This document shows, piece by piece, positions 2,125 to 48,192 of a DNA stretch of 64,000 bases. The position numbers and the translations under genes are program-made. Origin of the DNA: Chryseobacterium sp. SORGH_AS_0447 (GTDB taxonomy: Bacteria; Bacteroidota; Bacteroidia; Flavobacteriales; Weeksellaceae); assembly GCF_030818695.1 (NCBI RefSeq), contig NZ_JAUTAR010000001.1, positions 3,094,501-3,158,500 on the forward strand, written 5' to 3'. Under the pieces are notes generated by a model, which saw only the letters and a list, made by a program, of their open reading frames with translations, made no database searches and was not told the DNA's origin. How positions within the stretch are numbered: position 1 is the first letter of the stretch; every line of letters starts with the position of its first letter.

Positions 2125-2133
2125 AATTCAACA

Positions 2134-3513: not shown

Positions 3514-3522
3514 ACTTTAAGA

Positions 3523-5967: not shown

Positions 5968-6187
5968 TTTTTGTGATTTGGATAAGACTGAATGCTACAG
6001 ACTTAAAGTTTATTTACCTTACCGGATTTTTCTTAACGCAAGGTTAAGTTTTCCTGGTGTATCATGTAAGCAGGCAAAGAAATGTTCGGCAGGCTGATCT
6101 AATGAAGTGTGCACATCATCGATCTGCTTCATCACCGACACTCTCGCTCCCAATTGCTCCCTTAAAAATGGACGCTGGTCTCCGGAT

Positions 6188-8119
<1,932 letters not shown>

Positions 8120-25972: not shown

Positions 25973-26002
25973 AAAATTCAGACGAATAAAAAAAATATTT
26001 TT

Positions 26003-26243
26003 ATTGCTAACACTTAAATATCAGCAATTTACATATCGATTTTTTATGATAACAATTGTATATAAATAATGATAAGGTTATCATATAATTAACACTTACA
26101 TTTATTGTAAGAGATCATTTTACAAGCATTTATGTTAAAAAAATACATTAAAAATTTCTTAAAATTTATGTTAAAATAATATGATAAGAATTGTTAAAAA
26201 ATATTTTTAAAAAAATTATAAACAAGTGTAAAAAAAACACTTT
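26003..26243. promoter_or_regulatory. Cluster of ACACTT motif copies upstream of the regulator
   Basis: Copies are CTAACACTTAAAT (26007-26019), TTAACACTTACAT (26089-26101) and the inverted pair AAGTGT-(a7)-ACACTT (26224-26242). With the copy at 25940-25950 these suggest a (T)NACACTTA half-site for the Nudix-type regulator. The 872-base gap 25938-26809 is otherwise AT-rich and shows no coding sequence. Confidence 0.4.
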
Positions 26244-26662
26244 TACAGCCTAAAAAGCATTAAAAAAACATTAATTTTTTTACCATTTTTGTAGGTGAGG
26301 TCGCCTAAAATTATAAAAAACGGAATTTGGGTAAATGATTGCAATCGCAGGATCCACTTTTACATTTATTCTATTTAATATCTACACCAGATAATAATGG
26401 AGGTGAAAAGTGGAGATAAATTATTGCAGATGATTTCTATCGCTCACATACAGCTATTTTCACAGTGATAAAAGGATCTTTAACAATACCTTGAAAAAAT
26501 TAAACGTACAACTAGATATAGGAAAGATTATCAACAGCTGGATCACCAATTACACTATTAACATATAAAATAACAAACCCGAATCTAAAGACAGAATTTA
26601 TGATTCACGTAACTTGCGGCATCTCTAAAATAATTTTAAAAGTTAAAATCTTATTAAAAAAA

Positions 26663-26687
26663 TAAACCCACTGCAAAAGTGGGTTTA
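26663..26687 (-). terminator. Strong hairpin terminator facing left
   Basis: TAAACCCACT/AGTGGGTTTA forms a perfect 10-bp stem with a 5-base loop. The T-run (TTTATTTTTTT) follows only on the minus strand, so it stops leftward transcripts. No leftward gene is visible within about 120 bases to its right, so its source transcript is unknown. Confidence 0.7.
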
Positions 26688-26809
26688 ATGCGGTTAAAAA
26701 AATACAATTCGAGACAGTCGATTCTCTTCGTAAATCCGTATTTTGCCATTCTTTTTCCATGAAACCAGTCAAAGACAGCAACCATTCATCAGGTAAATAA
26801 AATAAGCTT

Positions 26810-27436
26810 ATGACGTTAACCGAAATTTCTTACGAGGATGAGTTTGAAAGAGCCATCTCTCCGGCTCAGGCGGCTACCCTGGATAGGTACATCAAAGTAT
26901 TTTCCGTAAACGGCATGGCCAAAAAAAAAGAAGAATACCGGAAAGGGGAACGAATCCATTTAATATATTACAGGGATCCTGATGACCCGGTTGAAGCGAT
27001 CCTGGCAGACTACAAGTTGTTTCCGACCATCGAAATCCGCGAAAGGCACAGGGCGGGAAACTACATACGGGTCGATGACTTTGAGTATGCGGACGGAATT
27101 CTGTGGGCCAAGGGGATTTCGGTATTTGACCATAAGGGCAATGAAATTTACAGCAGTCCGATCGATGCCGTAACCAACCGGCATGATTATGACGAAACTA
27201 ATAAATATTTCTATAACGACCACAATAAAAAATTATATGTTTTCTGGTACGGAACGAATGGCCAGTTCAGTTGTATGATGAGCTATAATCCCAATCATAA
27301 CCCCTATTTAAACGAATTCAAGCAGGACTTCCGGCTGGAGGATCTTCCGGGCCTGCCCGATTTCAACTGGCCGGAAATGGAATATTATCACCATGCGGAA
27401 CCGGTGGTTCCGGCTGACTCCGGATTTCATGAATAA
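26810..27436 (+). CDS. Hypothetical protein, 208 aa
   Basis: I do not recognise this family. The 208-residue product has no signal peptide or membrane segment, is rich in Tyr, Asp and Pro, and reads as a soluble, mostly beta protein (SVFDHKGNEIYSS, KKLYVFWYGTNGQFSCMMS). The codon use matches the surrounding genome, unlike the AT-rich defence genes further right. It starts at ATG 26810, and a TATTTTGC near 26750 may be its -7 element. Another unknown gene follows 27 bases later in the same direction, suggesting a two-gene operon. Confidence 0.7.
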   Translation: MTLTEISYEDEFERAISPAQAATLDRYIKVFSVNGMAKKKEEYRKGERIHLIYYRDPDDPVEAILADYKLFPTIEIRERHRAGNYIRVDDFEYADGILWAKGISVFDHKGNEIYSSPIDAVTNRHDYDETNKYFYNDHNKKLYVFWYGTNGQFSCMMSYNPNHNPYLNEFKQDFRLEDLPGLPDFNWPEMEYYHHAEPVVPADSGFHE

Positions 27437-27463
27437 ACAGAGGTTAAAGTAAAAATAAAGAAT

Positions 27464-27988
27464 ATGTCATATCATTATTATATATCAGTAACGGCTCATA
27501 TAAATAATAGAGGTGTTGATGCCACGATAAGCACCCCGACAATGGAAGAGGCATCAGAGCTTTCATTGATGGGTATCGACGAGATCACACAGGTTATCAA
27601 CAACTTACATACTGTCGTATCCGGACAGCTGGACTATCTGAATTGGGGCACGGACCTGCTCAATGTAACTTCTGAAGGTGATGTAACCCAATACGGACGT
27701 TATGATAAAGCAATGGAAATCCAAGTGACCACCCAGAGCCTGATCAGTTTTTTAACAGAGCTAAAAAGGTTTAAAGAACACTGTATGGAAAGAGATTATT
27801 ATAAAAGCATTATCAGCCGTGCGTTCACCAATGTGAGGGCTAATCCTTCCCGTTACAGGCGCTGGCCTTCTTCAGATCTGTATTATCTTATTACCATAGA
27901 CCGGATCACCGTTACACTGTCCATAGAAACTGAAGATTTTCATTTGTCAGCTGAAGAATATACCGCTCAGCTGAAAAGATATTTTTAA
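27464..27988 (+). CDS. Hypothetical protein, 174 aa
   Basis: Unrecognised soluble protein of 174 residues, second gene of a probable pair. It begins MSYHYYISVTAHI and has an amphipathic centre (SLISFLTELKRFKEHCMERDYY) and a C-terminal beta-like part (LYYLITIDRITVTLSIETEDFH). No catalytic motif, signal peptide or membrane helix is visible. Spacing of 27 bases to the upstream gene and shared direction imply co-transcription and a joint role; no function is proposed. Confidence 0.7.
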   Translation: MSYHYYISVTAHINNRGVDATISTPTMEEASELSLMGIDEITQVINNLHTVVSGQLDYLNWGTDLLNVTSEGDVTQYGRYDKAMEIQVTTQSLISFLTELKRFKEHCMERDYYKSIISRAFTNVRANPSRYRRWPSSDLYYLITIDRITVTLSIETEDFHLSAEEYTAQLKRYF

Positions 27989-28058
27989 TGACTTTTTAAA
28001 ATTATCTTTTTATTTTTACAGCAGATATTATGAGTATTTACACGAGTCTGATTAAATA

Positions 28059-28328
28059 TCACTCCTTTACCGCTCTCTTTACAATCAGATAAGCAGCATC
28101 CAGTATTTTAACAAGATGAATATACGACCCGATCATCCTTCTCTCCTCTTCGCATCGGGAATCTGAAAGAGAAAAATAAACAGCCGATGAAAGAAACTCT
28201 TCGTATTCTTTCCTGCGGTAAGCTTTAAAAGCCTTTCGGAGCACCCGCACCGAATCCCGGTATTTTTCGGCTGATAGGCTTCCCATTATCAAGGATGCGC
28301 TTTTCTCAGGAGATTCCTCATCGTCCAT
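28059..28328 (-). CDS. Small hypothetical protein, 89 aa
   Basis: Charged, helical protein without a recognisable domain (SAEKYRDSVRVLRKAFKAYRRKEYEEF, written here in parts; helix about residues 18-45). Its start lies inside the 3' end of the upstream small gene with a 40-base overlap in a different frame, so the two may be translationally coupled. Both lie leftward from an XRE-controlled divergent promoter region. Confidence 0.55.
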   Translation of the reverse strand: MDDEESPEKSASLIMGSLSAEKYRDSVRVLRKAFKAYRRKEYEEFLSSAVYFSLSDSRCEEERRMIGSYIHLVKILDAAYLIVKRAVKE

Positions 28329-28585
28329 TTGTTTCTTTTATTTCTGATGAGAAAACATGCGCGAACAAAAGATCTCAGCGCCAGGTAGAAATGAAAGGCC
28401 TCCGCCGCATCCTGAGCCGGTACGGATTTCTTTTTTACAGCGGAGATCATAATCTTATTAAGCATTCCCCGGGCGGTCGCCGGATCGTTGAACTGGAAAA
28501 AGGTTTCCAAAAGTCTTATCCCCGAATGCACTTTACTGCCGGACCAAAACCGGGCTTCCAGATTTAAATTTTTCTTTTTCATCAT
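28289..28585 (-). CDS. Small hypothetical protein, 98 aa
   Basis: Basic, helical 98-residue protein without a known domain; it contains FHFYLALRSFVRACFLI, a hydrophobic helix that could contact a membrane or a partner. A good -7 element (TACATTTG on the minus strand, 28664-28671) lies about 80 bases upstream, and the palindrome at 28689-28704 sits where the -33 region would be. That arrangement supports a real gene controlled by the divergent XRE regulator. It overlaps the next small gene by 40 bases. Confidence 0.6.
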   Translation of the reverse strand: MMKKKNLNLEARFWSGSKVHSGIRLLETFFQFNDPATARGMLNKIMISAVKKKSVPAQDAAEAFHFYLALRSFVRACFLIRNKRNKWTMRNLLRKAHP

Positions 28586-28663
28586 TTTGTTTTGTTAGGT
28601 TTCTTTATAATCAGGTACACAAAATTTTCATATTATCAAATTGCTGTACTGCGACTTCAATTA

Positions 28664-28671
28664 CAAATGTA
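28664..28671 (-). promoter_or_regulatory. -7 element of the leftward small-gene pair
   Basis: TACATTTG on the minus strand matches TAnnTTTG exactly. It is about 18 bases from the palindrome, which would cover the upstream promoter contact. Confidence 0.5.
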
Positions 28672-28688
28672 ATGATAATTTTTATTTA

Positions 28689-28704
28689 TTACCGAATTCG
28701 GTAA
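28689..28704. promoter_or_regulatory. Perfect 16-bp palindrome, likely XRE operator
   Basis: TTACCGAATTCGGTAA is fully self-complementary and stands in AT-only DNA between the divergent small-gene pair and the XRE regulator, 30 bases before the latter's ATG. This is the expected place and symmetry for a dimeric helix-turn-helix repressor site. Confidence 0.7.
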
Positions 28705-28734
28705 CGATATTTTTTTAATTAAATATCAAATTGC

Positions 28735-29007
28735 ATGAAACGTGCAATTATGAATGAATTTAAGACGAAAGAAATCAAAAGGTTAATCGCTGAAAAAATT
28801 AAAACAGCAAAAGGTGACATTCCTTACTCAAAAATTGCCGAAAAATGCAATGTCACCTCAGCCAGAATCAGCGATGTAGCCAACAATAAAATTGATTGTC
28901 AGCTGAGTACTTTACTTGAAATTGCTACCGGTCTGAGAATTCATCCTAAAGAACTTTTTGATATTGCTTTTGATTTTGAAGAATATTATTCTGAACTTGA
29001 TAAATAA
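28735..29007 (+). CDS. XRE-family helix-turn-helix regulator
   Basis: Small DNA-binding protein of 90 residues (84 if started at the second Met, MNEFKTKEI). The helix-turn-helix covers about residues 28-65: DIPYSKIAEKCNVTSARISDV with NNKIDCQLSTLLEIATGL, the classic Cro/C1 type. It has no extra sensor domain. A perfect palindrome immediately upstream suggests autorepression and control of the divergent small-gene pair. A rho-independent terminator follows five bases after the stop, so it is monocistronic. Confidence 0.85.
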   Translation: MKRAIMNEFKTKEIKRLIAEKIKTAKGDIPYSKIAEKCNVTSARISDVANNKIDCQLSTLLEIATGLRIHPKELFDIAFDFEEYYSELDK

Positions 29008-29011
29008 AATA

Positions 29012-29037
29012 ATCCTGACGAGCGTCGGGATTTTTTT
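29012..29037 (+). terminator. Terminator after the XRE gene
   Basis: ATCCTGACG/CGTCGGGAT stem (one G-T pair) with loop AG, followed by T7. Confidence 0.85.
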
Positions 29038-29112
29038 GTTTTACGGAAACCCGTAAGGCGATGATCTGGAAGCTGCTTATCTTTACTTTATTAACCAACA
29101 AAATTATTTATT

Positions 29113-29289
29113 ATGAGTGACGATTTAAATAAAAGAAGACCGCAGGATGCAAGTAAAATTAATGTGCATGAAGACTGGGAATTAGAATATTGGTCAAAAG
29201 AGCTTGGTGTTTCTAAGGAAAAAATAAGAGAGGCCGTCAAAGCTGTTGGGACTTCTGTGGCTGCAGTGAGAAGGTACCTTGGAAAATAA
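29113..29289 (+). CDS. DUF3606-type small protein, 58 aa
   Basis: Short ORF from ATG 29113: it begins MSDDLNKRRPQDASKINVHE and ends AVRRYLGK. This matches the small DUF3606 family seen across Bacteroidota and Proteobacteria, with the conserved DxxxI(N) then WELEYWSKELGVSKEKIREAV helix pair that resembles a tiny helix-turn-helix. Function is unknown. It has its own terminator 16 bases after the stop and a similar one before it, so it is a single transcription unit. Confidence 0.8.
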   Translation: MSDDLNKRRPQDASKINVHEDWELEYWSKELGVSKEKIREAVKAVGTSVAAVRRYLGK

Positions 29290-29304
29290 TTTAAGTTCAA
29301 TGAT

Positions 29305-29335
29305 AAATCCTAACGAGAGTTGGGATTTATTTTTT
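29305..29335 (+). terminator. Terminator after the DUF3606 gene
   Basis: AAATCCTAAC/GTTGGGATTT stem with loop GAGA, followed by ATTTTTT. The core CCTrACGAG..GT.GGGAT is shared with the terminator at 29012. Confidence 0.85.
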
Positions 29336-29485
29336 GAGGACACAATTATAATTCATGAGAAATTCCGTGAAAATACGGATAGGGAATTTTGTGGTAGTTT
29401 TTATTTTTGTTGTTTCTGAAGCTACATGAAGATTAAATAAATTTACGGCAGTTATATCAAATAACTATTAACCCTAAACTAAACA

Positions 29486-30508
29486 ATGACTTATACTTTT
29501 AAAAATACTGAAATTAATAATGAAAAAGCATCAGTCTTTGAGACAAAATCCTTATTATATTTAATTGGAAAAAGTGATAGTAAAAATGATATTGAATATA
29601 TCACTTTTGACTGTTTCAATGATGTAAGTGGAATAGATAAGCATGGAAAAAATATTTGGGATATCCAATCTAAAAATGAAGGAAATCTTAATCCTAAAAA
29701 AATTGGACAATATTTCTTCACTCTTTTTGACAATTCAATATCAAAACTAAATTTTAAAGAATTTATATTTTTCACCAGACAACTTAAAGACGAGTATAAA
29801 ATAGACAAATTGATAAGAGCTTACAGTTTTAATAATTTTGAAATAAAGACAAAACAAAGAATTAAAAATGGGCTAAGCAAAGAGATAGAGAGGGTGAAAG
29901 GCAAAGTTATTAACTATGATAATGAAATTGATTCATTTTTAGAGAATGTTCTAATAGTAGAAGACGATAGAACTGAACAAGAATACCTAAAACTTATAAC
30001 TAAATTTAAAAATAAATCTCTCAAGACAGATAATTTTTACTCAACTGTTTTTAAGGAATTAAGAGATCTTCAATCTTCCAAAAAAAATTCATTAATTGAA
30101 AATCAAATGATTTCTAATATTTTAGATGTGATAAATTTCAATCGCCATTTAAAAATTCTCGAAATCGATACGTTTCTTATTTGTCGAATAATTGGCGTAG
30201 AAATTTTTAAATATAAAAGTATACCTTTAGATTTTTTTGATTATGTTAAAGATTTATCACGTGATGATAGAGAAGATTTAATTCAGGAATGTAATTCTAA
30301 CTTATCCAGATGTTTATTCAATAAAACAAGTAATAAAGAATTTTGGAAAATTTGTGAAAAAATTATAAATTATTTAGATAAAAATTTCACAAATAGTACT
30401 GAGGATATTTATAAAGCACATTTTAATTCTTATATTCCAAAATATAATTATCTCAAAGAAATGACTATAAAATATATAATCGCTTTAATTATAGAAGGCT
30501 TCAAATGA
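29486..30508 (+). CDS. Cap4/DUF4297-like nuclease, effector of a two-gene defence system (putative)
   Basis: First gene of a two-gene operon, 340 residues, very AT-rich. The N-terminus resembles the PD-(D/E)xK-type nuclease fold of Cap4/DUF4297 effectors: a helix with E19, then TFDCFNDV (D42, D46) and WDIQSKN with the QxK catalytic end at Q61-S62-K63. Residues about 130-340 are helical and unassigned and may contact the partner. The stop overlaps the ATG of the next gene by 4 bases, so the two are translationally coupled. Coupling to a Rad50/SMC-like ATPase points to a Lamassu- or ABC-three-component-like system that cuts DNA after sensing phage or plasmid. The nuclease call rests on a short motif and is inference. 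Confidence 0.6.
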   Translation: MTYTFKNTEINNEKASVFETKSLLYLIGKSDSKNDIEYITFDCFNDVSGIDKHGKNIWDIQSKNEGNLNPKKIGQYFFTLFDNSISKLNFKEFIFFTRQLKDEYKIDKLIRAYSFNNFEIKTKQRIKNGLSKEIERVKGKVINYDNEIDSFLENVLIVEDDRTEQEYLKLITKFKNKSLKTDNFYSTVFKELRDLQSSKKNSLIENQMISNILDVINFNRHLKILEIDTFLICRIIGVEIFKYKSIPLDFFDYVKDLSRDDREDLIQECNSNLSRCLFNKTSNKEFWKICEKIINYLDKNFTNSTEDIYKAHFNSYIPKYNYLKEMTIKYIIALIIEGFK

Positions 30509-32115
30509 TTATAAAAAAAATTGCAATCGGAAATAATTCTGAAGCTTTTATTGAAGAAAGATTCCAGAATAAGACAAACATAATCTTTAGTGATGATAAC
30601 AATAAAGGTAAAACAATACTAATGCAAAGTATCGTTTATTCTATTGGCTATGAATCAATTTGGCCTGTAGGATTTAACCCTAGAAATTATTATTTTTATT
30701 CAAAAATATCATTTGAAAATATTGATTATGAATTCCTTAGACATAATAATTCTATTCTAGTTATTGGAAACAATCAAAATTACATATTTAATAGTATAAC
30801 TGAATTTAAGTATTTCTTAGCTAAAGAGATTATTCCAATACCTAATATTCCAAAAGATGGACAATTAAAAATCTCAGATTTAAGCTTATTTTATGAATTA
30901 TTCTTTTTGGGTCAAGATAGAAGAAATACATCAAATCTAATTGTAAAGTCTTTTAATAATAAGACTGATTTTTTAAATATGGTATTTTCTTATCAAGGGC
31001 TATTGAATGTTTTTTTTAATGATAATTCAGATGTTGAAGAATTAAAAATAAGAAAAGGAGAGTTAGAAGAAAAAATAAAAATTGAAAAAAAGAAAATTCA
31101 AATTTTAAAAAAAAATCCTAAAATAGCTAACTATGTAAGTAGTTTAGCTAATAATGAAGATTTTGAACGCATCAAAAAGAGGTTACGAGATTTGCATAAT
31201 TCTATAACCGAATTACGAAAAAACAGAAATAGAGAAGAAAATAGAAAAATTAAGTTAGACTATCTTATTATTGAATTAAACTCACTAAATAGAAACTTAA
31301 CAGCGGGAAAGGTTAAATGTTCTGACTGTGGTAGTTCTAAGGTCATTTTTTCAAATGATGATTTCGAATTTGATGTAAGTAATCAATATATCCGTAATAG
31401 TATAATTGAATCAATTAGGGAGAATATAAAACTGAAAGAAGAAGTTATTATGGAATTAGATGGAATTATTGAAAAAGAACAGATTGAAATAAATAAACTT
31501 TTAAAAACACCTAATCCTGAATTTAGCAATTACATTCTATTTGAAGCAGAAATTAGAGATTCTATAGAGATAGATAGTTCTGTTACGGTTTTAAGAAATG
31601 AATTGAATGAAATAGAAAATAATATAAAAAATATTAGCAATAGTATCGAATATAACAAACTTCAACAAGAAGAATTATTAGAAAAAATAATTAGCGAGAT
31701 CATTAGATTATATAGACTAATTGATCCGAAAGGAACAATGTTAATTAATGGACTTTTTACAAAGACAAATGAAACATTTTCGGGAAGCGAAGAGCAAGAA
31801 TTTTATTTCTGCAAAATTGTTGCATTAAATAATATTCTCGAACATAAATATCCAATTATAATTGATTCATTTAGGGAGGGAGAACTTTCCACAGCAAAAG
31901 AAGAAAAAATGATTGAAGAATTTGTTAAACTAAATAAGCAAGTAATTTTAACTTCAACGCTAAAAAGAGAAGAGTATTCTGCTGATAAATACTTGTCATT
32001 TCAAGATGTTAATACACTTGATTATTCTAAATTAGAAGATAGTAAACTTTTACAAAAAGAACATTTAGAAAAATTTTTAAAAATAATAGAAAAGTTTCCG
32101 ATAAAACTTAAATAA
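30505..32115 (+). CDS. Rad50/SMC-like ABC ATPase with zinc-hook CxxC (putative defence ATPase)
   Basis: Second gene of the operon, 536 residues. An N-terminal ATPase half has a Walker A variant SDDNNKGKT (G35-K36-T37; the usual first Gly is Ser) and a Q-loop near Q137. Two coiled coils (about 175-265 and 300-400) flank CSDCGSS at C272-C275, the position and form of a Rad50 zinc hook. The C-terminal half has the ABC signature FSGSEEQ (425-431) and Walker B PIIIDSFREGE with D454 and a likely catalytic E458. The H-loop region has ILTSTLK without His. Rad50-like hooks mediate DNA bridging; with the nuclease partner a DNA-sensing defence role is likely. The family is clear, the system type is not. 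Confidence 0.75.
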   Translation: MIIKKIAIGNNSEAFIEERFQNKTNIIFSDDNNKGKTILMQSIVYSIGYESIWPVGFNPRNYYFYSKISFENIDYEFLRHNNSILVIGNNQNYIFNSITEFKYFLAKEIIPIPNIPKDGQLKISDLSLFYELFFLGQDRRNTSNLIVKSFNNKTDFLNMVFSYQGLLNVFFNDNSDVEELKIRKGELEEKIKIEKKKIQILKKNPKIANYVSSLANNEDFERIKKRLRDLHNSITELRKNRNREENRKIKLDYLIIELNSLNRNLTAGKVKCSDCGSSKVIFSNDDFEFDVSNQYIRNSIIESIRENIKLKEEVIMELDGIIEKEQIEINKLLKTPNPEFSNYILFEAEIRDSIEIDSSVTVLRNELNEIENNIKNISNSIEYNKLQQEELLEKIISEIIRLYRLIDPKGTMLINGLFTKTNETFSGSEEQEFYFCKIVALNNILEHKYPIIIDSFREGELSTAKEEKMIEEFVKLNKQVILTSTLKREEYSADKYLSFQDVNTLDYSKLEDSKLLQKEHLEKFLKIIEKFPIKLK

Positions 32116-32247
32116 CATTTTTGCTACTTCTTTTAAAATCAAATATTAATTTATCCGTAATCTATATAATTTACCCGTACCAATAAAATTTCGCATATAA
32201 ACCCTCAATGGCAACAAAATTGCTGCTGCTTAGTATTGTTGAATTTT

Positions 32248-34227
32248 ATGATAACTGCAGACCGTTCATTCGAAAACAATTTTACTTCCGACTTACTGAT
32301 TCAGGCCCTCGCCTGCTCTCCCGCACCCACCGCCCTTTATTCCGGCGAAGACATTATCATCCGTTTTGCGAACCAGGGAATGCTGGAACTTTGGGGGAAG
32401 GACGCTTCCGTGATTGGGAAACCACTGATGGAGGCACTTCCGGAACTGGAAGGACAGCCTTTTTTGGGACTTTTGCAGCAGGTCTGGCGTTCGGGGAAAA
32501 CCTATGCGGTATCGGAAGCGCCGGCTAAGCTGATTAAGAACGGAGTTGAAACGCTGGATTATTTTGATTACGAATATCGTGCCCTTTTGGATGAAAACCA
32601 AAAAACCTGGTGCATCCTGAACACGGCACTGAACGTTACCTCTCGCCGCGAATTCCTGGAACAGCTTCGGGTGAAAGAAGAAAGGGAACAAGCCCTGAAT
32701 GAAGAAATGGCCACTACCCTCGAGGAACTGACCTACAGCAATGAAGAACTCGGCAATTCCATTCAGCAGCTTGCCCATAGCAAAGAATATATCCGTGCCA
32801 TCATCGAACAGGCCCCCGTGGGAATCGCGATGCTGAAAGGACCGGAGCATCTTATTGAGATTGCCAATCCGGCGATCCTACAGATCTGGGGACGTACGGA
32901 AGATGAAGTCGTGGGTTATCCGCATGAACAGGTACGACCTGAACTGCGCGGCCAGCCTGTGAACGGATGGCTCCGTGAAGTATACGAAAGCGGTGTCCCG
33001 AAAATAAACAACGAATTTCTGGTAAAACTTCATCATAAAGACGGATTGCGGGAAGCGATCGTCAACTCCATTTACCAGCCTATCTTTTCAGAACACGGAG
33101 AAATTTCAGGGGTCCTGATCATCCTTGAAGAAATTACCCAGCAGGTATTGGAACGGCGCAAAAATGAAAACGACCAGCATATGCTGGCGATGGCCATCGA
33201 TGCGGGGGAACTCGCTACTTTCTATTATCAGCCTGAAACCAATCTGTTTTCCGGCAATACGCTTCTCAAGAACTGGTTTGGTCTTTCTTCGAGTGAAAAT
33301 TTAGATCTGTCCATCGCATTGGAGGTGATTATTCCGGAAGACCGGGAACGTGTTGCTTCTGCCATCGTTCAGACTTTAAGCAAGAATTCCAACGGCCATT
33401 ATTTCGTGGAATACCGGATCCAAAATAAATCAGACTATAGAGTCCGGTTGCTTCAGGCCCGCGGACGGGTTTTCTACGATACACAGGGGAATGCTCTGAG
33501 CCTTAACGGCACTTTAAGAGACATCACCGAACAAAAGAAAGAGGAAGAACGGAAAGACGATTTTATGGGAATCGTAAGCCACGAGCTGAAAACCCCGATC
33601 ACTTCGCTAAAAGCTTATCTTCAGGTGTTGCAGCGGATGGCGGTAAAAGCAGAACATCAGCTGCAGCAGAGTACCCTGGAAAAATCCCTCAAGCAGGTGG
33701 ATAATATGGCTGCGATGATCAATGGTTTCCTGAATGTCTCCAGGTTAGATTCCGGGCAGATGCACATCGAAAAGACAACCTTCGATTTCCAGCTGCTATT
33801 CTCAGAAATTGAGGATGAGGTTTTATCCGTTATTCATACCCATCAGTTTATTTTCCAAGCAGCCGGGCCTTTGCAAGTATCGGCGGACCGCGAGAAAATT
33901 TCGCAGGTCATCCACAACCTCATCGGAAACGCGGTAAAATATTCACCGATGGGAACGGTGGTTACGGTGGAATATGCAAAAACGGAAGATAACCGCTTAC
34001 AAATTAAGGTTCAGGATCAGGGCAAAGGAATATCAGCAGATGATCAGCAGCGGATATTTGAACGGTACTACCGGGTACAGGATAATCAAAACACCTCTAT
34101 AACAGGCTTTGGGATCGGACTTTACCTCTGCAAAGAAATTATCGAGCTTCACGAAGGCAGCATTGAGGTTGAGAGCTCACAGGATGAAGGTTCGGTTTTC
34201 TCATTTGTTTTGCCGCTTAAAGGATAA
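32248..34227 (+). CDS. Soluble multi-PAS sensor histidine kinase
   Basis: Cytoplasmic histidine kinase of 659 residues from the ATG at 32248; the frame extends 12 bases to a TTG, which I reject. Three PAS-like domains cover about 15-125, 175-290 and 300-420; a coiled coil with EEREQALNEEMATTLEEL joins the first two. The dimerisation domain has the H-box FMGIVSHELKTPITSL, and the ATPase domain shows the N-box IHNLIGNAVKYS, DQGKGIS and GFGIGLYLCKEI. There is no membrane helix and no adjacent response regulator, so its partner is elsewhere. The signal it senses is unknown. Confidence 0.92.
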   Translation: MITADRSFENNFTSDLLIQALACSPAPTALYSGEDIIIRFANQGMLELWGKDASVIGKPLMEALPELEGQPFLGLLQQVWRSGKTYAVSEAPAKLIKNGVETLDYFDYEYRALLDENQKTWCILNTALNVTSRREFLEQLRVKEEREQALNEEMATTLEELTYSNEELGNSIQQLAHSKEYIRAIIEQAPVGIAMLKGPEHLIEIANPAILQIWGRTEDEVVGYPHEQVRPELRGQPVNGWLREVYESGVPKINNEFLVKLHHKDGLREAIVNSIYQPIFSEHGEISGVLIILEEITQQVLERRKNENDQHMLAMAIDAGELATFYYQPETNLFSGNTLLKNWFGLSSSENLDLSIALEVIIPEDRERVASAIVQTLSKNSNGHYFVEYRIQNKSDYRVRLLQARGRVFYDTQGNALSLNGTLRDITEQKKEEERKDDFMGIVSHELKTPITSLKAYLQVLQRMAVKAEHQLQQSTLEKSLKQVDNMAAMINGFLNVSRLDSGQMHIEKTTFDFQLLFSEIEDEVLSVIHTHQFIFQAAGPLQVSADREKISQVIHNLIGNAVKYSPMGTVVTVEYAKTEDNRLQIKVQDQGKGISADDQQRIFERYYRVQDNQNTSITGFGIGLYLCKEIIELHEGSIEVESSQDEGSVFSFVLPLKG

Positions 34228-34308
34228 ACTATTTATTCACTTAAGAAAACAATTTAAATATCGCTTGTTTTCAAATCTGCAATATTTAAACTTAAGTCAA
34301 TAAAAAAA

Positions 34309-34341
34309 TAAAACACCGAAGAAATAGTCTCCGGTGTTTTT
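34309..34341. terminator. Bidirectional terminator between the kinase and the stress-protein gene
   Basis: AAAACACCG.AGA/TCT.CGGTGTTTT stem with one mismatch; T-runs on both strands, serving two convergent genes. Confidence 0.8.
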
Positions 34342-34378
34342 TATAGCTTGTCTATGTAGATTTTACATAAATGGTATC

Positions 34379-34798
34379 TTAAGCTGCGGTATATTCTCCC
34401 TCCTGGTCCTTATGCCAAAACGTTACCCGCTCTGCGCTGACTTTTATTAAACAGATTCCCGGGGTATCGATGCCTTCCGGAAACCACTGTTCCAGGCCAT
34501 CCACCCATTTTTCTTCAAGGGTTTCCTTATCCTTGACTATCGATGCCTTACCGTAGCAATCGATAAACAACATATCATCGGTTTGGTAAATGAGATTCAC
34601 CTTGTTGTCATTTTCAATCTGTTGAACTTTATTGCTGTCCTCGTATGTGAAAAACCACGAGTCTCCGTCATATTCTACTTTGCCGTTGTTGCTCATCGGC
34701 CTGGAATGCGGAACCTGTTTTTCGTCGCGTGTGGTCATCATGCAGAAGTCTAAATCTTTCATTTTTTCTGCAATGGTCTGTAATGATGCTTTTTCCAT
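34379..34798 (-). CDS. Pyridoxamine 5'-phosphate oxidase-like general stress protein 26
   Basis: Small FMN-binding split-barrel protein, 139 residues. Segments FCMMTTRDEKQVPHSRPM, DSWFFTYEDSNKVQQIENDNKVNLIY and the C-terminal VTFWHKDQEGEY are typical of the general stress protein 26 branch of the PNPOx-like family, which binds flavin but does not make pyridoxal phosphate. It is a monocistronic leftward gene bounded by a shared terminator at its 3' side. A role in stress protection is presumed from the family. Confidence 0.85.
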   Translation of the reverse strand: MEKASLQTIAEKMKDLDFCMMTTRDEKQVPHSRPMSNNGKVEYDGDSWFFTYEDSNKVQQIENDNKVNLIYQTDDMLFIDCYGKASIVKDKETLEEKWVDGLEQWFPEGIDTPGICLIKVSAERVTFWHKDQEGEYTAA

Positions 34799-35056
34799 TT
34801 TAATTTTTTTTGTGAAGTTTTGGTGTGTACGAATTATTTTCTTTTCCTTTACTCATTGTCATATCAAATAACTGAAATAAAGGAGATAACTGCTTTATAT
34901 TCCAAGTATAACCAAAAGATATACCGATTATCTAAAAGACGGGACAACTCTGTTTTCCTGAAAGAGAAAACCTGAATTTAACTTTGTCTTTTATACAATA
35001 GGATAACTACTTTGGGATTGGCATGCATTTGGTTCAGGATGGGAAAAATAATTCGT

Positions 35057-41608: not shown

Positions 41609-42031
41609 TTACCTTATTTTGCATATTTCAGAGGTGACGCTACCTTCTCCCTTAACGCTGGTTTCTACTATCGAGCAGTTATCTTCAATGTCATTTATTG
41701 TGCACTTATATCCTCCTACAGAATTCACATAAAGGTCAATTTCATTATATTGACTTTTTGTTGTATCAAGAATCAAAGTATATTGATTATCATCTTTCCA
41801 AAATATTTTATAGTACCTATCTTTTTTTAGTTTTTTGCCGGTGTCAAGATCAAATGTTTGTTCAATTTGAAAGTCCGCAGTTCGTTGCAAGAGATATTTT
41901 CTGTTAGAATTCTTATTAATTAGTTGAAATTTTCCAATTTTGAAATCTGTAGATTGCATATCCTTCTTAGTTTCTGTTTTTTTGCAGTTAAGAAGAATAA
42001 AAGTAGTTGAAAGAATAGTGATTATTTTCAT
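41609..42031 (-). CDS. Putative lipoprotein, 140 aa
   Basis: Unrecognised small lipoprotein; the signal is MKIITILSTTFILLNC with the Cys at residue 16, followed by a charged linker and a beta-rich domain (KYLLQRTADFQIEQTFDLD, YYKIFWKDDNQYTLILD). Similar small proteins are common next to toxin-immunity loci in Bacteroidota, but no immunity function is shown. It is separated from the immunity array by a terminator. Confidence 0.7.
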   Translation of the reverse strand: MKIITILSTTFILLNCKKTETKKDMQSTDFKIGKFQLINKNSNRKYLLQRTADFQIEQTFDLDTGKKLKKDRYYKIFWKDDNQYTLILDTTKSQYNEIDLYVNSVGGYKCTINDIEDNCSIVETSVKGEGSVTSEICKIR

Positions 42032-42078
42032 AGATATTTAATGTTTTAAATCTAAATTTTTAATATTTCTTGAAAAAC

Positions 42079-42103
42079 AACACTCCACTTGAAGCAGAGT
42101 GTT
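42079..42103 (-). terminator. Terminator at the end of the toxin-immunity operon
   Basis: AACACTC/GAGTGTT stem, then GTTTTTC on the minus strand; located after the SUFU fragment. Confidence 0.65.
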
Positions 42104-42180
42104 ATAATTTAGTTATAAAAAATTTATGAATTACTGTTAAAAGCTGTAAGGGCGAGTAATTCTATATCAAATAATGTATT

Positions 42181-42462
42181 TTAAATAGCAGATATTCTAT
42201 TAATATCAAATATATCTATATCTTTTTCCTGAAAAATATCCTCTAAGGCAGATTTACCATTTTCCATTTTATATTCTAGTTCTTTGTCTGAAATTGGAAC
42301 TCCCAAAAGCCAATGTACAGTTTTATTAGGAAGTTTCAACGGTTCTAGTTTATCCTCCCATAAGAAAGGTGATATAAACATAATATGCTCCATTTCAGAG
42401 GTTTCATAATACATTTCAATAATTCTCATAAATACTGCCCCTGATTGACACTGCCATTTCAT
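42181..42462 (-). pseudogene. C-terminal fragment of a SUFU-family immunity protein
   Basis: The 93-residue frame matches only the C-terminal part of suppressor-of-fused-like proteins: FISPFLWEDKLEPLKLP, VHWLLGVPISDKELEY and the end DIFDINRISAI. Intact bacterial SUFU proteins are about 180-220 residues, so the N-terminal half is missing. Bacterial SUFU proteins are known as immunity proteins of polymorphic toxins. The break lies beside the 3' end of a duplicated DMP19 gene, suggesting that duplication or recombination truncated it. It may still be translated. Confidence 0.7.
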
Positions 42463-42489
42463 ATTAATAATATATGAACTTTATTAAAA

Positions 42490-42963
42490 TTAATTTTTCA
42501 AATGATTTTGCAAATAATCAACAAGCAATTGTTCCAAATCTTCATCAAGATCATAATACTCATCATCTAATTTCTCTAATGAATCAAAAATTTCATCATC
42601 AAATTCAGTAATTTTTTCTAATTTTCTACTGAAAATTCTTGTTCTAAATTCTTCAATGTCGTAATGTTCACTGTTGACAATTTCTACTGCTTTCTCTAAA
42701 ATTTTTGATGCTTCAAATGCTTTTATAAGCTTTAAATTTTCAATGGTTAAATAAGCAAATTGTCCATATGAATTAAAAAAGTATTGATGTAAACCACCAT
42801 TAAATACCTGTTCATGATAAATAATTATCGTATAGGTGACCTGTAAATTTTGAGGCAAATCATTAATATAATCATACCACAAATCCTTATCATTTAATAT
42901 TTTATCATTTAAACCTTTAACCGAATTTGCATAATATTTGCTGGATATTTCTTCATTTTTCAT
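42490..42963 (-). CDS. DMP19/DUF4375 family acidic protein, copy A (putative immunity)
   Basis: Acidic 157-residue protein of the DMP19 (DUF4375) family; YTIIIYHEQVFNGGLHQYF and NSYGQFAYLTIENLKLI are the family core, and the C-terminus is a run of Asp and Glu (EKLDDEYYDLDEDLEQ). Neisseria DMP19 is a DNA mimic. Next to a putative nuclease toxin, an acidic DNA-mimic immunity role is attractive but inferred. It differs from copy C (43995-44468) at about 24 of 157 positions, and near-identity continues past the stop. A terminator lies upstream, so it may have its own promoter. Confidence 0.85.
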   Translation of the reverse strand: MKNEEISSKYYANSVKGLNDKILNDKDLWYDYINDLPQNLQVTYTIIIYHEQVFNGGLHQYFFNSYGQFAYLTIENLKLIKAFEASKILEKAVEIVNSEHYDIEEFRTRIFSRKLEKITEFDDEIFDSLEKLDDEYYDLDEDLEQLLVDYLQNHLKN

Positions 42964-43020
42964 AATAATATTTGATTTATATCGCTTTGACTGCTCTTGC
43001 CAAAAGAATCCTGTGACAGA

Positions 43021-43056
43021 AAAAGGGGCAGATTTAATTATGTAATTCTACCCCTT
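43021..43056 (-). terminator. Terminator within the immunity array
   Basis: AAGGGG/CCCCTT stem with inner AATT pairing, followed on the minus strand by T5. It separates the 113-aa gene from DMP19 copy A. Confidence 0.6.
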
Positions 43057-43136
43057 GAGTTTAAAGTGACATCTGCTCAAAATTTAATTTGGCAATTGTT
43101 TTATTAAATGGGTTTATAACATACTTTCATATATCT

Positions 43137-43478
43137 TTATTCTTCCTCTATTAATTCTAAAAATAAACTTTGCAAGTCTTCATTTAGTTTCTCCTTGGTA
43201 TCTTCTGTTGTCAAAATAAACTCATTATCGATACCTTCTGCATAAGTTGAGCCGTCTAATATTCCTAATACGTGAGATAATGTATTGATCTCAACAATTT
43301 TTAAAAAATTTAAAAATGTCTCTTTCTCAATTTTTGAAAAATTGATATACATCGGCAGTATACCTTTCCAAATAGGATCTGTGGCCTGCGTAGTGTTTTC
43401 CAATAAGTCTTTATATAAACTTAAATTTTCTTCAATAACTTCCTTATTAAGGATTTTTACTAATTCTTCCGGTTTCAT
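43137..43478 (-). CDS. Hypothetical acidic protein, 113 aa (putative immunity)
   Basis: Acidic helical protein with no family I can name (KPEELVKILNKEVIEEN, SHVLGILDGSTYAEG). Its ATG overlaps the stop of DMP19 copy B by 4 bases, so the two are translated together. Length, charge and position fit a small immunity protein in a toxin-immunity array; that is context only. Confidence 0.65.
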   Translation of the reverse strand: MKPEELVKILNKEVIEENLSLYKDLLENTTQATDPIWKGILPMYINFSKIEKETFLNFLKIVEINTLSHVLGILDGSTYAEGIDNEFILTTEDTKEKLNEDLQSLFLELIEEE

Positions 43479-43954
43479 TTAAAAGGTAGTTTTTTTAAAT
43501 AGTCTGCTAATAAATCTTCTACATTTTCGTCTTCAATATTATAATATATATCATCTAATTTTCTTAAGGGCTCATCTAAGATATCCTCTCTGAAAAGTCT
43601 TTTAAGATTTTTATTTAATAGTTGTTTCCGAAATTCTTCATCGCTCAAATTATCATCTTTTACTAGATTGAAAGCATTTTCTAATAAATTTGATTTTTTA
43701 AATGCTCCTATTTCAATTAAAGCGTCTATCGTTTCCTTTGCAAATTGCCCATAACCGTTTACAAAATATTGGTCAAATCCCCCATTAAATACCTGGCTTT
43801 CCACTAGCACTGTAAGATATGTTGCTTGAAGATGTTTAGGAAGATTTACAATGTGACTATACCAATATGGCATATCACTATCAAACCAGTCATCTTTAAG
43901 ATCCTTGGTCGATTGTAGATAGTATTTTTCAATTAGTGTTCTGTTGCTCAACAT
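43475..43954 (-). CDS. DMP19/DUF4375 family acidic protein, copy B (putative immunity)
   Basis: Diverged paralogue of the flanking DMP19 proteins, 159 residues. It keeps the family core (VESQVFNGGFDQYFVNGYGQ, ETIDALIEIGAF) and the acidic C-terminus (YYNIEDENVEDLLADYL) but shares far less with copies A and C than they share with each other. It overlaps the next gene by 4 bases. The array order toxin, copy C, copy B, 113-aa, copy A implies stepwise gain of immunity genes. Confidence 0.85.
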   Translation of the reverse strand: MLSNRTLIEKYYLQSTKDLKDDWFDSDMPYWYSHIVNLPKHLQATYLTVLVESQVFNGGFDQYFVNGYGQFAKETIDALIEIGAFKKSNLLENAFNLVKDDNLSDEEFRKQLLNKNLKRLFREDILDEPLRKLDDIYYNIEDENVEDLLADYLKKLPFK

Positions 43955-43994
43955 ATAATTACATTATTCATAATTTTAATGAACTTTATTAAAA

Positions 43995-44468
43995 TTAATT
44001 TTTCAAATGATTTTTCAAATAATCAACAAGCAATTGTTCCAAATCTTCATCAAGATCATAATACTCATCATCTAATTTCTCTAATGAATCAAAAAGTTCA
44101 TCATCGAAATCAGTAATTTTATCTAATCTTCTATTGAAAATTCTTGTTCTGAATTCATCAATGTCATATTGTTCGATATTGACAAGTTCTAAAGCTTTCT
44201 TTAAAATTTTCGCTGCTTTAGAAGCTTTTATTAGCTTTAAATTTTCAATGGTTAAATAAGCAAATTGTCCATATGAATTAAAAAAATATTGATGCAAACC
44301 TCCATTGAAGACCTGTTCATGAAAAATAATTATTGTATATGTTACTTGTAGATTTTGAGGTAAGTCAATAACATATTTATACCATAAATCCTTATCATTT
44401 ATTATTTTCGTGTTTAAGCCTTTAACCGAATCTGCATAATATTTGCAGGTTATTTCTTCATTTTTCAT
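43995..44468 (-). CDS. DMP19/DUF4375 family acidic protein, copy C (putative cognate immunity)
   Basis: DMP19-family protein of 157 residues directly after the RHS toxin gene (9-base gap), the usual place of the cognate immunity gene. It shares the VFNGGLHQYFFNSYGQFAYL core and the Asp/Glu-rich C-terminus with copy A, with which it is about 85% identical by my count. A DNA-like acidic surface could block a nuclease toxin by occupying its DNA-binding site; this is inference from Neisseria DMP19. Confidence 0.88.
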   Translation of the reverse strand: MKNEEITCKYYADSVKGLNTKIINDKDLWYKYVIDLPQNLQVTYTIIIFHEQVFNGGLHQYFFNSYGQFAYLTIENLKLIKASKAAKILKKALELVNIEQYDIDEFRTRIFNRRLDKITDFDDELFDSLEKLDDEYYDLDEDLEQLLVDYLKNHLKN

Positions 44469-44477
44469 ACTTAAATT

Positions 44478-47400
44478 TTATTTTTTAGCTTTTATAAATG
44501 CACCCTCGTACATTGTTTTATTGAGTTGTATTAATTCTTGTAAAGCTTCATTTGGAATACCTTGACTACCATAAACACGCCTTAATTCAAAAATATCTCT
44601 TGCAACAACATCTCGAGCGCTTGTAAGACCTTTTGTGTTTCGAGATACAACTCCTTTTCCTATTGTGTGACCTTCTTTTGGAACCAGAATTGAAGGAGCT
44701 GTTTTTGGGTCATAATCTGCAATAAGTCTCTTCATTATAGCTTTTTGACCCACATGATGCGCATCTAGTCCCTCTTCTATACCCTGCATTACTTTGTATT
44801 TTCCAACTTTCCACAAATTTGGACTTGGCGGTGTTGCAGGCGGAGTTTCTCTTAACGTTCCAGTTACAAATAATCCAACTGAGGCTAACGTCATTAAAAA
44901 TTGTGCATCACGTTCTCCAACATGGTCTTCTAATTTATCTTGTACTAACATTCCGGCAACATCAGTCGGTCCCATAAAAGCTATCCCACCATCATAGTAA
45001 TGTGCTGGTAATATGACCTCTCTCCTTGGTTGCGGCAAATTACCAATAGTGAATCCTACACTTCCATAGCAAACACTACAATTATTTGGCAGAGTGGTTG
45101 CTGGATTTGATGCTATTGCTCTTAGCGGCGCGTTAATGACAACCTCTTCAATTGGAGCTGGATTATTATCTCCCCCAATCGCATTAGGTGATAGCTTAGG
45201 TACCGGATCACCAAACAATCCCGATGGATCGGAAAACATTACGGGATTGTTATAGGCATAACCGTAAGCGTCGAGAGTTGCATTACTTAATGGATCATGA
45301 GTGCCAAAGCGACCTACATCCGCCATATAGAAACGAGCATTCATATCATATAATCCCGTTTCCTGTAATTCCTGGCCTAAAAACTTGTATTTTTTATAAC
45401 TTCCGCCTCCAAAATATGCACTACCTGTTTTCAGGTGATTCATCCCGAACGGGTAGAAATCATTGTTATCGACAATCTCAAGAGCTCCTGTGCTGCTTTT
45501 TCCATAGGAAACCCTTACATTTCCCTGTAAATCTTTATATTGGTAAATATATTGATTTTTTACATAATCGTAGAAGCCTTCTCCTGTAGCGAAAAACTGT
45601 AAATCCGGAGTTTTTATAATCAATGGCGTACCAGGATCTCTAAAATCAATTGGGGTAAAAGCCTGCGGTTCATAAGCTCTCGAAGCCATCATCATTTCTG
45701 AACTTCCGCCACCGCCTGTGTTTTCACCTGTTGTACTGAAATACTGGAACCCGTCCAGATAATCCGTTGTTTCTTTGGTTGTGGTTGTCCCTGAAATTCC
45801 TACCGAGGTTTTTGCTGTTTCTTTTCTTATTTTGCTGCCATCTGCCCGGTATTTTGTGACAATATCTGTGGTAAGCTGTCCCAGGTTAATGGTTAATGAG
45901 TTGGGTAGATTCATATAATTATAACCGATGCTGGTGATGCTTTTATCGATCATATTTTTCATGTTCCCATTCACATCATACGCGATAGTATTTCCTGCCG
46001 TCCCTTCATATCCGGTAGCATTTCCACTTAGATCCTGAATTTTAGTGGCCCTGTTTCCGGTGTAGTCATAGGTAAGATTATCAATTACCGTAGCCGTACT
46101 GCTTCCGTTTTCCATTACGGAAGTCCTATAAATATTAGAAATATTACCGTTCAGATCATAAGCCAAAGACTCCGTATTTTCCTTGCTATAAGGATTCTGG
46201 GGATTCTGGTAAAATCCCGCCGTTAATCTGTCTAACCTGTCATAAGCATATCCGTATCTTTTCGGGGTAATTGACGGATTTGTTCCAATAGCCTCTACTG
46301 CTCTCCAATCGATCTCCGCAATATTCCCATTGTACTTCGGTATCACGTTCTTTCCCGGGAACTGTGAAGAATCCGGATTCTGGATACCGTCTCGATTAGC
46401 GTACTTTATCTTATAAGAAAATAGTTTTCCGCCAAGATCAGCAGCAGCCATCTGGTTTTTATTAATATCCGTTAGCCAGCCCCTAACATTGTAATCATAA
46501 TCGATAGTCTGTAAAGGTGCAGAACCAGAGGTAGAGCCTACTTTTTTATTGACGAGCTGGGACAGATCGTTATAGGTATTCTCTGCGAGTAATTCCTCCG
46601 GATTGCTGTCTACCTGATGAAAATGCTTTATAAGCCTGTTTTGATCATCGTAAACAAATCTTTCCATCACTGTCACACCGGTTTCGCCCTGCTTTCTGAG
46701 GTGAAAGATATTTATTCTTAAAGGAACTCCTAAAAAATCCACCTCTGTCTCGGTATTAGTATACCCTCCGAGATAGTTTGTTCTTTTGGAGGCAATCGCC
46801 CTTCCAAAAGAATCGTAATAATTATAAGTTTTCGTCCAGTTATTATCTTCAATATTTTTTACGTAAGAAGCGGTCAGAAATCCGTTGGTAGAAGCGTCAT
46901 TATTGGCATCCACAGTCTGCGGCAGGACATACTGTCCTAAAACAGTCTGCGGAACCGCAGGTGCTTCAGGAGGGTAGGTATCATAATAATTTACCGAAAG
47001 CAGCGTCATGCTTCCCGTAGGAAACGCCTGTTTGCTATAATACACATCAAGTCCCTGCAAATTAAAGGAAGTCGATGTTCTTTTTTCGTTGTTGTAAGCA
47101 TTTGCCGACATGCTGTTCAATGCATTTTGCATGGCCTGTCTTGTGGCGGTATTGGCAAAAAAGCCGGTATAAACTACTCTTCCGGATTCATCATACTTGG
47201 TGAAAAGCCAGCCTTTAGCATTAAAATTATTATTTATAGTTCTTAAAACTCCATCCTGAGCCAAGACGACCCTATCTTGTTTATCATATGCTAAAAATTC
47301 CCATTCTTTTCCAGGTAATCTTTTCTCTACAAGTCTATCCCTTCCGTCATATCTGTACTGGTAACAGAGTTCGTTTAATACAGCATCAGTAATGACATTG

Positions 47401-48185
47401 TTGTTCTGCTCGATCTGCTGTACCGCTTTAGGGGTAATGATGAAAGCCTGTTGGTTATATTCATTATAAACATAGTAGGTATCTATGTTTTGCGAACCGT
47501 CGTTCTTCCGGATTAAAACCGTCTGTCCTCTTCCGTTCTGAAACTGGATGACCGCGTTTCCATCTTCGTCGGTTATTGTATTTTTATACAGGGTTCCCGC
47601 AGGATAAAACCCTGAATTAGCCGAAGAAAGTGATACTGTAGAAACCGTATTGGAAACACCGCTTACCGTATTGGTTGAAGTACTGGTAACAAAAGCCTTT
47701 ACTTCGTTTCCGGTATTGGCTTCGTATTTATATTTTTTCGTTTTCCCGGAACTCATTTTCCATTCCTCTCCCGGATTTGCTTCCTGCAAAACCCTGTCTA
47801 AAGGGGAATTTTCAATTTCCTTTTCCGTAAAAGCATTGGAAACACCATAATAGGCGTTGGCTGCTGTTTCGTTGGTAATTCCGGTGTGGATTGATGAGTT
47901 CTGAGAAGTTACAGGTACGGGCAATATATTTTTTGTCTGCCTTCCGAATCCGTCATACGTTACTGGCATAACCAGATCTTTCCCGGTCGGACTGGCTTTG
48001 ACATTGATGATCTGTTTGGGCCTTCCCAACCCGTCAAAATAGGTAATGGATTCTGATTTTTTGCTACAATCCTGATTCAGACAGTCTATAGACTGCACAT
48101 AATTTTCATTGGATTGTGCAAAAGACATCCCTGCGAGCAATAAGCTTAACAAGGACAATCCTTTTAATATTAAATATTTTTTCAT
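44478..48185 (-). CDS. RHS-repeat protein (DUF6443 type) with C-terminal putative nuclease toxin
   Basis: RHS/YD-repeat protein of 1235 residues from the ATG at 48185 (MKKYLILKGLSLLSLLLAG, signal peptide ending FAQ); a longer frame begins inside the preceding gene. The N-terminus (DCLNQDCSKKSESITYFDGLGRPKQ) is the DUF6443 type seen in Chryseobacterium. Many YD repeats lead to the core end ARFYMADVGRFGTHDPLSN and YAYNNPVMFSDPSGLFG. After this about 220 residues are variable: a linker and a C-terminal domain with GLDAHHVGQ and VPKEGHT, which looks like a His-based HNH-type nuclease. The toxin type is inference; the RHS architecture is firm. Immunity candidates follow directly. Confidence 0.88.
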   Translation of the reverse strand: MKKYLILKGLSLLSLLLAGMSFAQSNENYVQSIDCLNQDCSKKSESITYFDGLGRPKQIINVKASPTGKDLVMPVTYDGFGRQTKNILPVPVTSQNSSIHTGITNETAANAYYGVSNAFTEKEIENSPLDRVLQEANPGEEWKMSSGKTKKYKYEANTGNEVKAFVTSTSTNTVSGVSNTVSTVSLSSANSGFYPAGTLYKNTITDEDGNAVIQFQNGRGQTVLIRKNDGSQNIDTYYVYNEYNQQAFIITPKAVQQIEQNNNVITDAVLNELCYQYRYDGRDRLVEKRLPGKEWEFLAYDKQDRVVLAQDGVLRTINNNFNAKGWLFTKYDESGRVVYTGFFANTATRQAMQNALNSMSANAYNNEKRTSTSFNLQGLDVYYSKQAFPTGSMTLLSVNYYDTYPPEAPAVPQTVLGQYVLPQTVDANNDASTNGFLTASYVKNIEDNNWTKTYNYYDSFGRAIASKRTNYLGGYTNTETEVDFLGVPLRINIFHLRKQGETGVTVMERFVYDDQNRLIKHFHQVDSNPEELLAENTYNDLSQLVNKKVGSTSGSAPLQTIDYDYNVRGWLTDINKNQMAAADLGGKLFSYKIKYANRDGIQNPDSSQFPGKNVIPKYNGNIAEIDWRAVEAIGTNPSITPKRYGYAYDRLDRLTAGFYQNPQNPYSKENTESLAYDLNGNISNIYRTSVMENGSSTATVIDNLTYDYTGNRATKIQDLSGNATGYEGTAGNTIAYDVNGNMKNMIDKSITSIGYNYMNLPNSLTINLGQLTTDIVTKYRADGSKIRKETAKTSVGISGTTTTKETTDYLDGFQYFSTTGENTGGGGSSEMMMASRAYEPQAFTPIDFRDPGTPLIIKTPDLQFFATGEGFYDYVKNQYIYQYKDLQGNVRVSYGKSSTGALEIVDNNDFYPFGMNHLKTGSAYFGGGSYKKYKFLGQELQETGLYDMNARFYMADVGRFGTHDPLSNATLDAYGYAYNNPVMFSDPSGLFGDPVPKLSPNAIGGDNNPAPIEEVVINAPLRAIASNPATTLPNNCSVCYGSVGFTIGNLPQPRREVILPAHYYDGGIAFMGPTDVAGMLVQDKLEDHVGERDAQFLMTLASVGLFVTGTLRETPPATPPSPNLWKVGKYKVMQGIEEGLDAHHVGQKAIMKRLIADYDPKTAPSILVPKEGHTIGKGVVSRNTKGLTSARDVVARDIFELRRVYGSQGIPNEALQELIQLNKTMYEGAFIKAKK

Positions 48186-48192
48186 ACTGTGA

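Follow-up and report, generated by a model that had tools for sequence, protein, structure and literature searches.

Two overlapping genes near the middle of the window, which is the whole 64-kb stretch of Chryseobacterium DNA analyzed here (host genome, one contig of 4.37 Mb), raise the question of whether they form a defense system of their own or a version of a known one. The first-pass annotation had proposed a two-gene defense candidate joining an LmuB/Rad50-like zinc-hook ATPase to a partner with a QxK motif, and PADLOC matches, a match to a solved LmuB, residue conservation, and profile-profile comparison all bear this out. We favor reading the pair as a mobile system akin to type I Lamassu, whose effector family is either its own or far diverged. 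Genes A and B were found with the 4-base ATGA overlap described earlier, and the AT-richness of the segment was likewise recovered: the three 1-kb intervals from 29001 to 32000 have G+C contents of 0.289, 0.225, and 0.251, versus 0.37 to 0.46 in the two nearest intervals on each side. Further AT-rich intervals of the window lie at 26001-27000 (0.294) and 42001-45000 (0.255 to 0.318). By eye, an RHS/YD-repeat-like protein of 1258 aa (44478-48254, - strand) is followed by three similar small proteins of 157, 159, and 157 aa (42490-44468, - strand), and together these resemble a polymorphic toxin whose immunity gene is repeated. The features of the pair, in window coordinates, are as follows.

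29486..30508, + strand: gene A, an open reading frame of 340 aa (PADLOC model PDLC04520, PDC-M22A; E = 1.7e-140)
30505..32115, + strand: gene B, an LmuB/Rad50-like ATPase of 536 aa (PDLC04526, PDC-M22B; E = 3.1e-210)
29540..29674, + strand: codons 19 to 63 of A with E19, D42, D46, and Q61-S-K63, the presumed catalytic motif, from conservation
30589..30615, + strand: Walker A of B, S29-DDNNKGK-T37, with S29, D30, N32, N33, G35, K36, and T37 in 48/48 B proteins
31318..31329, + strand: zinc-hook-like CxxC of B, C272 and C275, both cysteines in 48/48
31780..31791, + strand: ABC-signature-like S426-G-S-E of B, with S426 and G427 in 48/48
31852..31875, + strand: Walker B of B, P450-R457, with D454 in 48/48 and without the catalytic glutamate
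29352..32185, no strand: approximate extent of the inserted cassette, from comparison with relatives without the pair

Both proteins match adjacent-gene models of PADLOC-DB 2.0.0, PDC-M22A and PDC-M22B, over nearly their full lengths; the pair belongs to the candidate family PDC-M22, and no feature distinguishes it from that family. The same models match all 45 rows of our A alignment and all 48 rows of our B alignment, the window's own among them. A passage of PMC10855318 describes PDC candidates as being without experimental validation, a passage of PMC12988326 gives validation as pending for most of them, and a literature search of limited scope found no paper naming PDC-M22. The pair is real, well conserved, and already catalogued as a candidate; because the family is already listed, it is a modest finding as a new system. 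With this analysis, an unnamed entry of a database becomes a specific hypothesis open to testing, that of an LmuB sensor with a nuclease that is either not LmuA or a very diverged form of it.

The A alignment (A5) has 45 rows after removal of L014 (interrupted), L025 and L056 (incomplete), L008 and L009 (plasmid records), L003 (the same locus as L014), and L006 (the same locus as L016). The B alignment (A6) has 48 rows, with L008, L009, L003, and L006 dropped. Pairwise divergence reaches 73% in the A alignment and 71% in the B alignment.

Homology of protein B to LmuB

Judged by its sequence, protein B is a homolog of LmuB. The window's B matches the LmuB model PDLC00254 of PADLOC with E = 1.2e-17, and 46 of the 48 B proteins match it at E ≤ 0.01. 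The best PDB match of the 48-protein B profile was the solved LmuB 9ux7/9ux8 (562 aa; E = 4.7e-12, profile positions 19 to 497), followed by a designed helical protein (E = 3e-4); no Rad50 chain occurs among the 29 matches at E ≤ 1. A profile of four LmuB proteins from the window's family also retrieves 9ux7/9ux8 (E = 4.7e-15). The alignment of B with 9ux7 pairs the Walker A (SKGNTKGK in 9ux7), a CxxC, an SGS, and a ‘DSF’ Walker B. When profiles were compared directly, B scored 99.5% against seven LmuB proteins (E = 1.6e-22); in the reversed control it is the coiled-coil middle that aligns, and the score was 31%. With four LmuB proteins, the score had earlier been 96.7%. Of the seven, two had been scanned with PADLOC, two more (from L077 and L078) are 76% and 72% identical to the protein of L076, and the three of L108 to L110 were recognized because a DUF4297 gene precedes them. 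L079 (broken frame) was left out, and L059 (internal stop) was also unused. A quick tree with four LmuB rows, in which branches are very long, was used only to show that the B proteins form one group and that the LmuB proteins differ strongly.

The motifs named in the first-pass annotation (D46 and Q61-S-K63 in A; SDDNNKGKT, C272/C275, and TSTL in B) are all present, and they are fixed or nearly fixed in the relatives. In B, the residues S29, D30, N32, N33, G35, K36, T37, C272, C275, D454, and T485 each occur in all 48 aligned proteins. The residue that follows the Walker B aspartate D454 is serine in 34 proteins, tyrosine in 6, cysteine in 5, phenylalanine in 2, and alanine in 1, and is never glutamate. 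Four aligned LmuB proteins of Flavobacteriia have a ‘DS’ Walker B, a CPxC hook, and the Walker A GANxxGKS. The Walker A of B, earlier called atypical, is therefore unusual beside these four but resembles the SKGNTKGK of the solved protein. Passages of PMC10586767 report a Glu-to-Gln change in LmuB generally and a zinc hook in many, though not all, LmuB proteins. From these motifs, B probably binds ATP and hydrolyzes it slowly or not at all. The traits that appear odd from the sequence of the pair, namely the absent catalytic glutamate and the absent middle gene, are common to type I Lamassu.

Gabija and Septu (PtuA) were rejected because neither GajA nor PtuA is among the eight PADLOC matches of B at E ≤ 1. 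Among the best 25 of 69 Pfam families matched by the 48 B proteins, each family matches at most 5 proteins (AAA_23 matches 4 and SMC_N matches 1). The Pfam and NCBIfam matches of the window's own A and B fall below the curated cutoffs, are mutually discordant, and were taken as chance.

Protein A and type I Lamassu

Q61 and K63 are present in all 45 aligned A proteins, and E19 and D46 are present in 44; W58 and D59 (45/45 each) and D42 and N45 (44/45 each) are similarly conserved. E19 is a likely fourth motif residue that the earlier annotation had missed. The set E19/D46/Q61/K63 is the residue pattern of PD-(D/E)XK nucleases in its QxK variant, and on the strength of these motifs the N-terminal region of A may have a PD-(D/E)XK-like nuclease fold. 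A Chou-Fasman average over the alignment is only loosely compatible with a helix and strands around the motif and was set aside as evidence. Searches of Pfam, NCBIfam, PHROGs, and PDB sequences gave no match to A above chance, no solved structure matches the A profile at E ≤ 1, and the libraries hold no believable name for it other than PDC-M22A; individual Pfam families match at most 3 of the 45 A proteins. PADLOC matches to PD-T4-6 (E = 0.0044) and Cas11a (E = 0.0085), in one A protein each, were taken as chance.

Two rows have gaps in the motif. One A protein (L050) begins later, and that of Sporomusa ovata (L031:6037-7011) lacks the D42-D46 stretch while keeping Q61 and K63 and is possibly an inactive nuclease. 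At L014, A is broken into a 129-aa piece and a 185-aa piece that matches A residues 156 to 340, and B is intact; either the effector was lost first or the draft sequence is in error.

The reading that survives best beside our own is that the pair is simply type I Lamassu and that A is an LmuA diverged beyond sequence detection. It has the same mechanism as our preferred explanation and does not exclude it, and we regard it as a serious possibility, if somewhat short of probable. According to a passage of PMC12409362, two-gene Lamassu is type I, the form originally described, and three-gene Lamassu is type II; elsewhere, one passage puts the share of Lamassu loci with LmuC at about 10.2% (PMC8565338), and another describes Lamassu as usually having three components, with LmuC lacking in some (PMC10586767). 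PDC-M22 shares with type I an LmuB-type SMC-like ATPase with a CxxC hook and a ‘DS’ Walker B without glutamate, a two-gene order with the effector upstream and without LmuC, and similar protein sizes (340 + 536 aa in the window versus 355-397 + 549-587 aa). A passage of PMC11811056, in which one PDC-M46 call coincides with a Lamassu call in the proteins it covers, also fits this reading.

Two-gene operons of LmuA (357 to 363 aa) and LmuB (571 to 577 aa) occur in the window's own family. A 4-base overlap like that of A and B joins the genes in three of these operons (L076, L077, and L078) and at L110; in a sixth Lamassu locus of the family, L079, LmuB is broken. The suggestion of a minimal or new subtype, which the first-pass annotation had drawn from the two-gene layout, is weakened accordingly. 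On the named plasmids L108 to L110, a DUF4297 gene is followed by a protein of 570, 587, and 549 aa, respectively, with a further hypothetical gene right behind at L108; L111 has two smaller genes instead, and L112 ends at the record edge. Searching the genome of the window for LmuA gave no match, and the control genomes were equally silent.

The comparison of A with LmuA itself cuts both ways. An E/D/QxK-type pattern also stands near the N terminus of LmuA, but the spacing from D to Q is 15 in A versus 19 in the LmuA of L076, and at E ≤ 0.01 LmuA models match none of the 45 A proteins. Against the profile of 13 LmuA proteins of the DUF4297/Cap4 form, A scored 1.6% (E = 0.03), versus 0.3% (E of about 0.2) for both the reversed and the LmuB controls. 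This nonsignificant match stays in register from its beginning (columns 24-228 of A with 26-236 of LmuA), which speaks for kinship; against it, the N-terminal parts alone scored 0.2% versus 0.3% for the control, and an earlier comparison with five LmuA proteins gave 0.1%. Of the 13 sequences, five were PADLOC scanned, L096 and L097 came from the LmuA model, L106 came from a profile scan, and L108 to L112 were found by tblastn with an LmuA. Because the profile comparison is barely above its controls, the earlier label ‘Cap4-like’ holds for A as a resemblance of motif and does not extend to the models or profiles.

PDC-M22 thus differs from type I Lamassu in an A protein that has no significant relation to LmuA/DUF4297 in sequence comparisons covering the DUF4297/Cap4 form, in a slightly shorter B (530 to 549 aa versus 549 to 587 aa for LmuB), and in a Walker A unlike that of the four Flavobacteriia LmuB proteins. 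We tentatively suggest that an LmuB-type sensor may here be paired, in records labeled with six phyla, with a non-LmuA effector whose nuclease domain and docking part are of independent origin. If so, the LmuB switch could control unrelated partners, and sensing would be separable from the reported mechanism of the LmuA tetramer, for which a passage of PMC12409362 cites work in which freed LmuA tetramerizes.

Gene pairing, distribution, and mobility

A and B are closely paired and coevolve. At 46 of the 47 loci found through B, B is immediately preceded by an A-family open reading frame, and the two overlap by 1, 4, or 11 bases at 42 of these 46; at the sole exception, L025, just 686 bases of contig precede B. 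The A reading frame is incomplete at L014 and L056. Distances between A proteins correlate with those between B proteins (r = 0.898; 990 pairs from 45 loci), and none of 2,000 permutations gave a correlation as high.

Neighboring reading frames within 5 kb of the pair (460 in 50 loci, with less sequence at contig ends) formed three clusters present in at least three loci, recognized by eye as serine recombinases (10 loci), tyrosine integrases (4 loci), and a DUF1016-like protein (3 loci); among these clusters there is no recurrent third gene. The earlier statement that a separate middle component is absent is thereby confirmed, since A abuts B and no third gene recurs within 5 kb in the 50 loci. 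A three-component Lamassu with a missing gene was rejected on the same grounds and because the site of a relative lacks the pair altogether. The likeness to Lamassu and ABC-three-component systems proposed in the first-pass annotation stands for the LmuB homology and the type I layout and fails for the middle component. Type II Lamassu, DdmABC, and ABC-3C share with PDC-M22 an SMC-like sensor and a predicted nuclease, whereas the PDC-M22 pair has neither a middle component nor a recurrent third gene.

The pair is mobile; some copies lie in predicted prophages, and one follows a type I restriction gene. In three genomes of the same genus that carry the pair (G509, G495, and G417), the best DNA match listed to window positions 26500-35000 spans about 29446-32114, the pair alone. 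In a fragmented draft genome of 73% completeness (G538), the pair is absent and the window's flanks lie 224 bases apart, with matches of contig L092 to 29002-29351 and 32302-34152; contig L094 of another genome (G556) matches the window from 32186 on. From these flank matches, the insert extends from about 29352 to 32185. In a further genome of the genus (G451, L093:3819-6367), other genes, by eye an arsenic resistance operon, occupy the insertion site, which suggests that this position, upstream of the histidine kinase, could be a hot spot.

The distribution is patchy. In the window's family, 5 genomes of 320 have a B match, counting the window's own; a sixth match (G669; E = 5.7e-4 over 97 residues) was counted as unspecific. 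The PDC-M22A model, run over 395 genomes of the phylum, matched in the window's own genome only. A short-pattern scan of a species-level genome collection, which gives a lower bound, found at least 45 B loci, and B is present in 2 of 72,556 plasmid records and in none of 50,697 phage records. Predicted viral contigs yielded three loci in an alignment scan, whereas a first scan with B alone had found none. The records are labeled Bacteroidota, Bacillota, Pseudomonadota, Bdellovibrionota, Actinomycetota, and Cyanobacteriota/Melainabacteria, and many are metagenome assemblies.

A stands before B in all three viral contigs and is cut by the contig end in L113. In L113, the neighbors of the pair are an S24-type repressor and a phage replication gene A; in L114, the pair lies between a DUF927 protein and a gpA terminase with a lambda-family portal. 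In L115 (positions 967-6608), A follows, at a distance of 3 bases and on the same strand, an hsdR-like gene that encodes HSDR_N and helicase domains and is itself preceded by a Methylase_S gene; the pair there appears as if it were part of a type I restriction operon. These contexts, from three loci, are consistent with defense, and carriage by prophages and plasmids would also fit a role that serves the element. On the latter account, A is a toxin held by B, and the pair is a stabilizing or interelement competition module of phages and plasmids rather than a host defense system. The two plasmid records, the three viral contigs, and the presence of recombinase-like genes no more than 5 kb away at 10 of the 50 loci speak for such a module. 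We consider it unlikely, however, because in the window's genome the pair alone forms a chromosomal insert and because the homology of B to LmuB points to DNA sensing.

Proposed mode of action

We consider it fairly likely that the pair is a self-contained, horizontally moved, two-gene defense cassette operating in the manner of type I Lamassu. B would dimerize, with contacts at the ATP-bound heads and at the zinc hook, and would keep A inactive in an A:B complex, probably through the C-terminal region of A. The trigger may be abnormal phage or plasmid DNA (ends, hairpins, or stalled forks) sensed by B. Because the catalytic glutamate is missing, B would act as a slow or one-way ATP switch and not as a motor. 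A would then be freed or would oligomerize, and its QxK nuclease domain, proposed from the conserved residues, would cut DNA. Infection would end, probably with the death of the cell. We infer sensing and release in PDC-M22 by analogy with Lamassu, as described in passages of PMC10586767, PMC12409362, and PMC12904381. If this model is true, comparison with Lamassu could separate the parts of activation that belong to the sensor from those that belong to the effector.

The Lamassu-like cassette must also be weighed against a reading modeled on the SbcCD/Rad50-Mre11 complexes, in which nuclease and ATPase would work directly on DNA that is invading or damaged, by processing ends and not by cell suicide. 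PDC-M22 resembles these complexes in its CxxC hook, ABC-type heads, and coiled coils, and in the adjacency of a zinc-hook ABC-type ATPase to a predicted nuclease. Direct end processing is nevertheless improbable: A has no phosphoesterase match, unlike Mre11/SbcD, and the catalytic glutamate expected of a cycling motor is absent from all 48 B proteins. Housekeeping repair of the SbcCD kind was rejected on account of the missing Walker B glutamate and the patchy distribution, and it also fits poorly with the recombinase neighbors and with the relative whose site lacks the pair.
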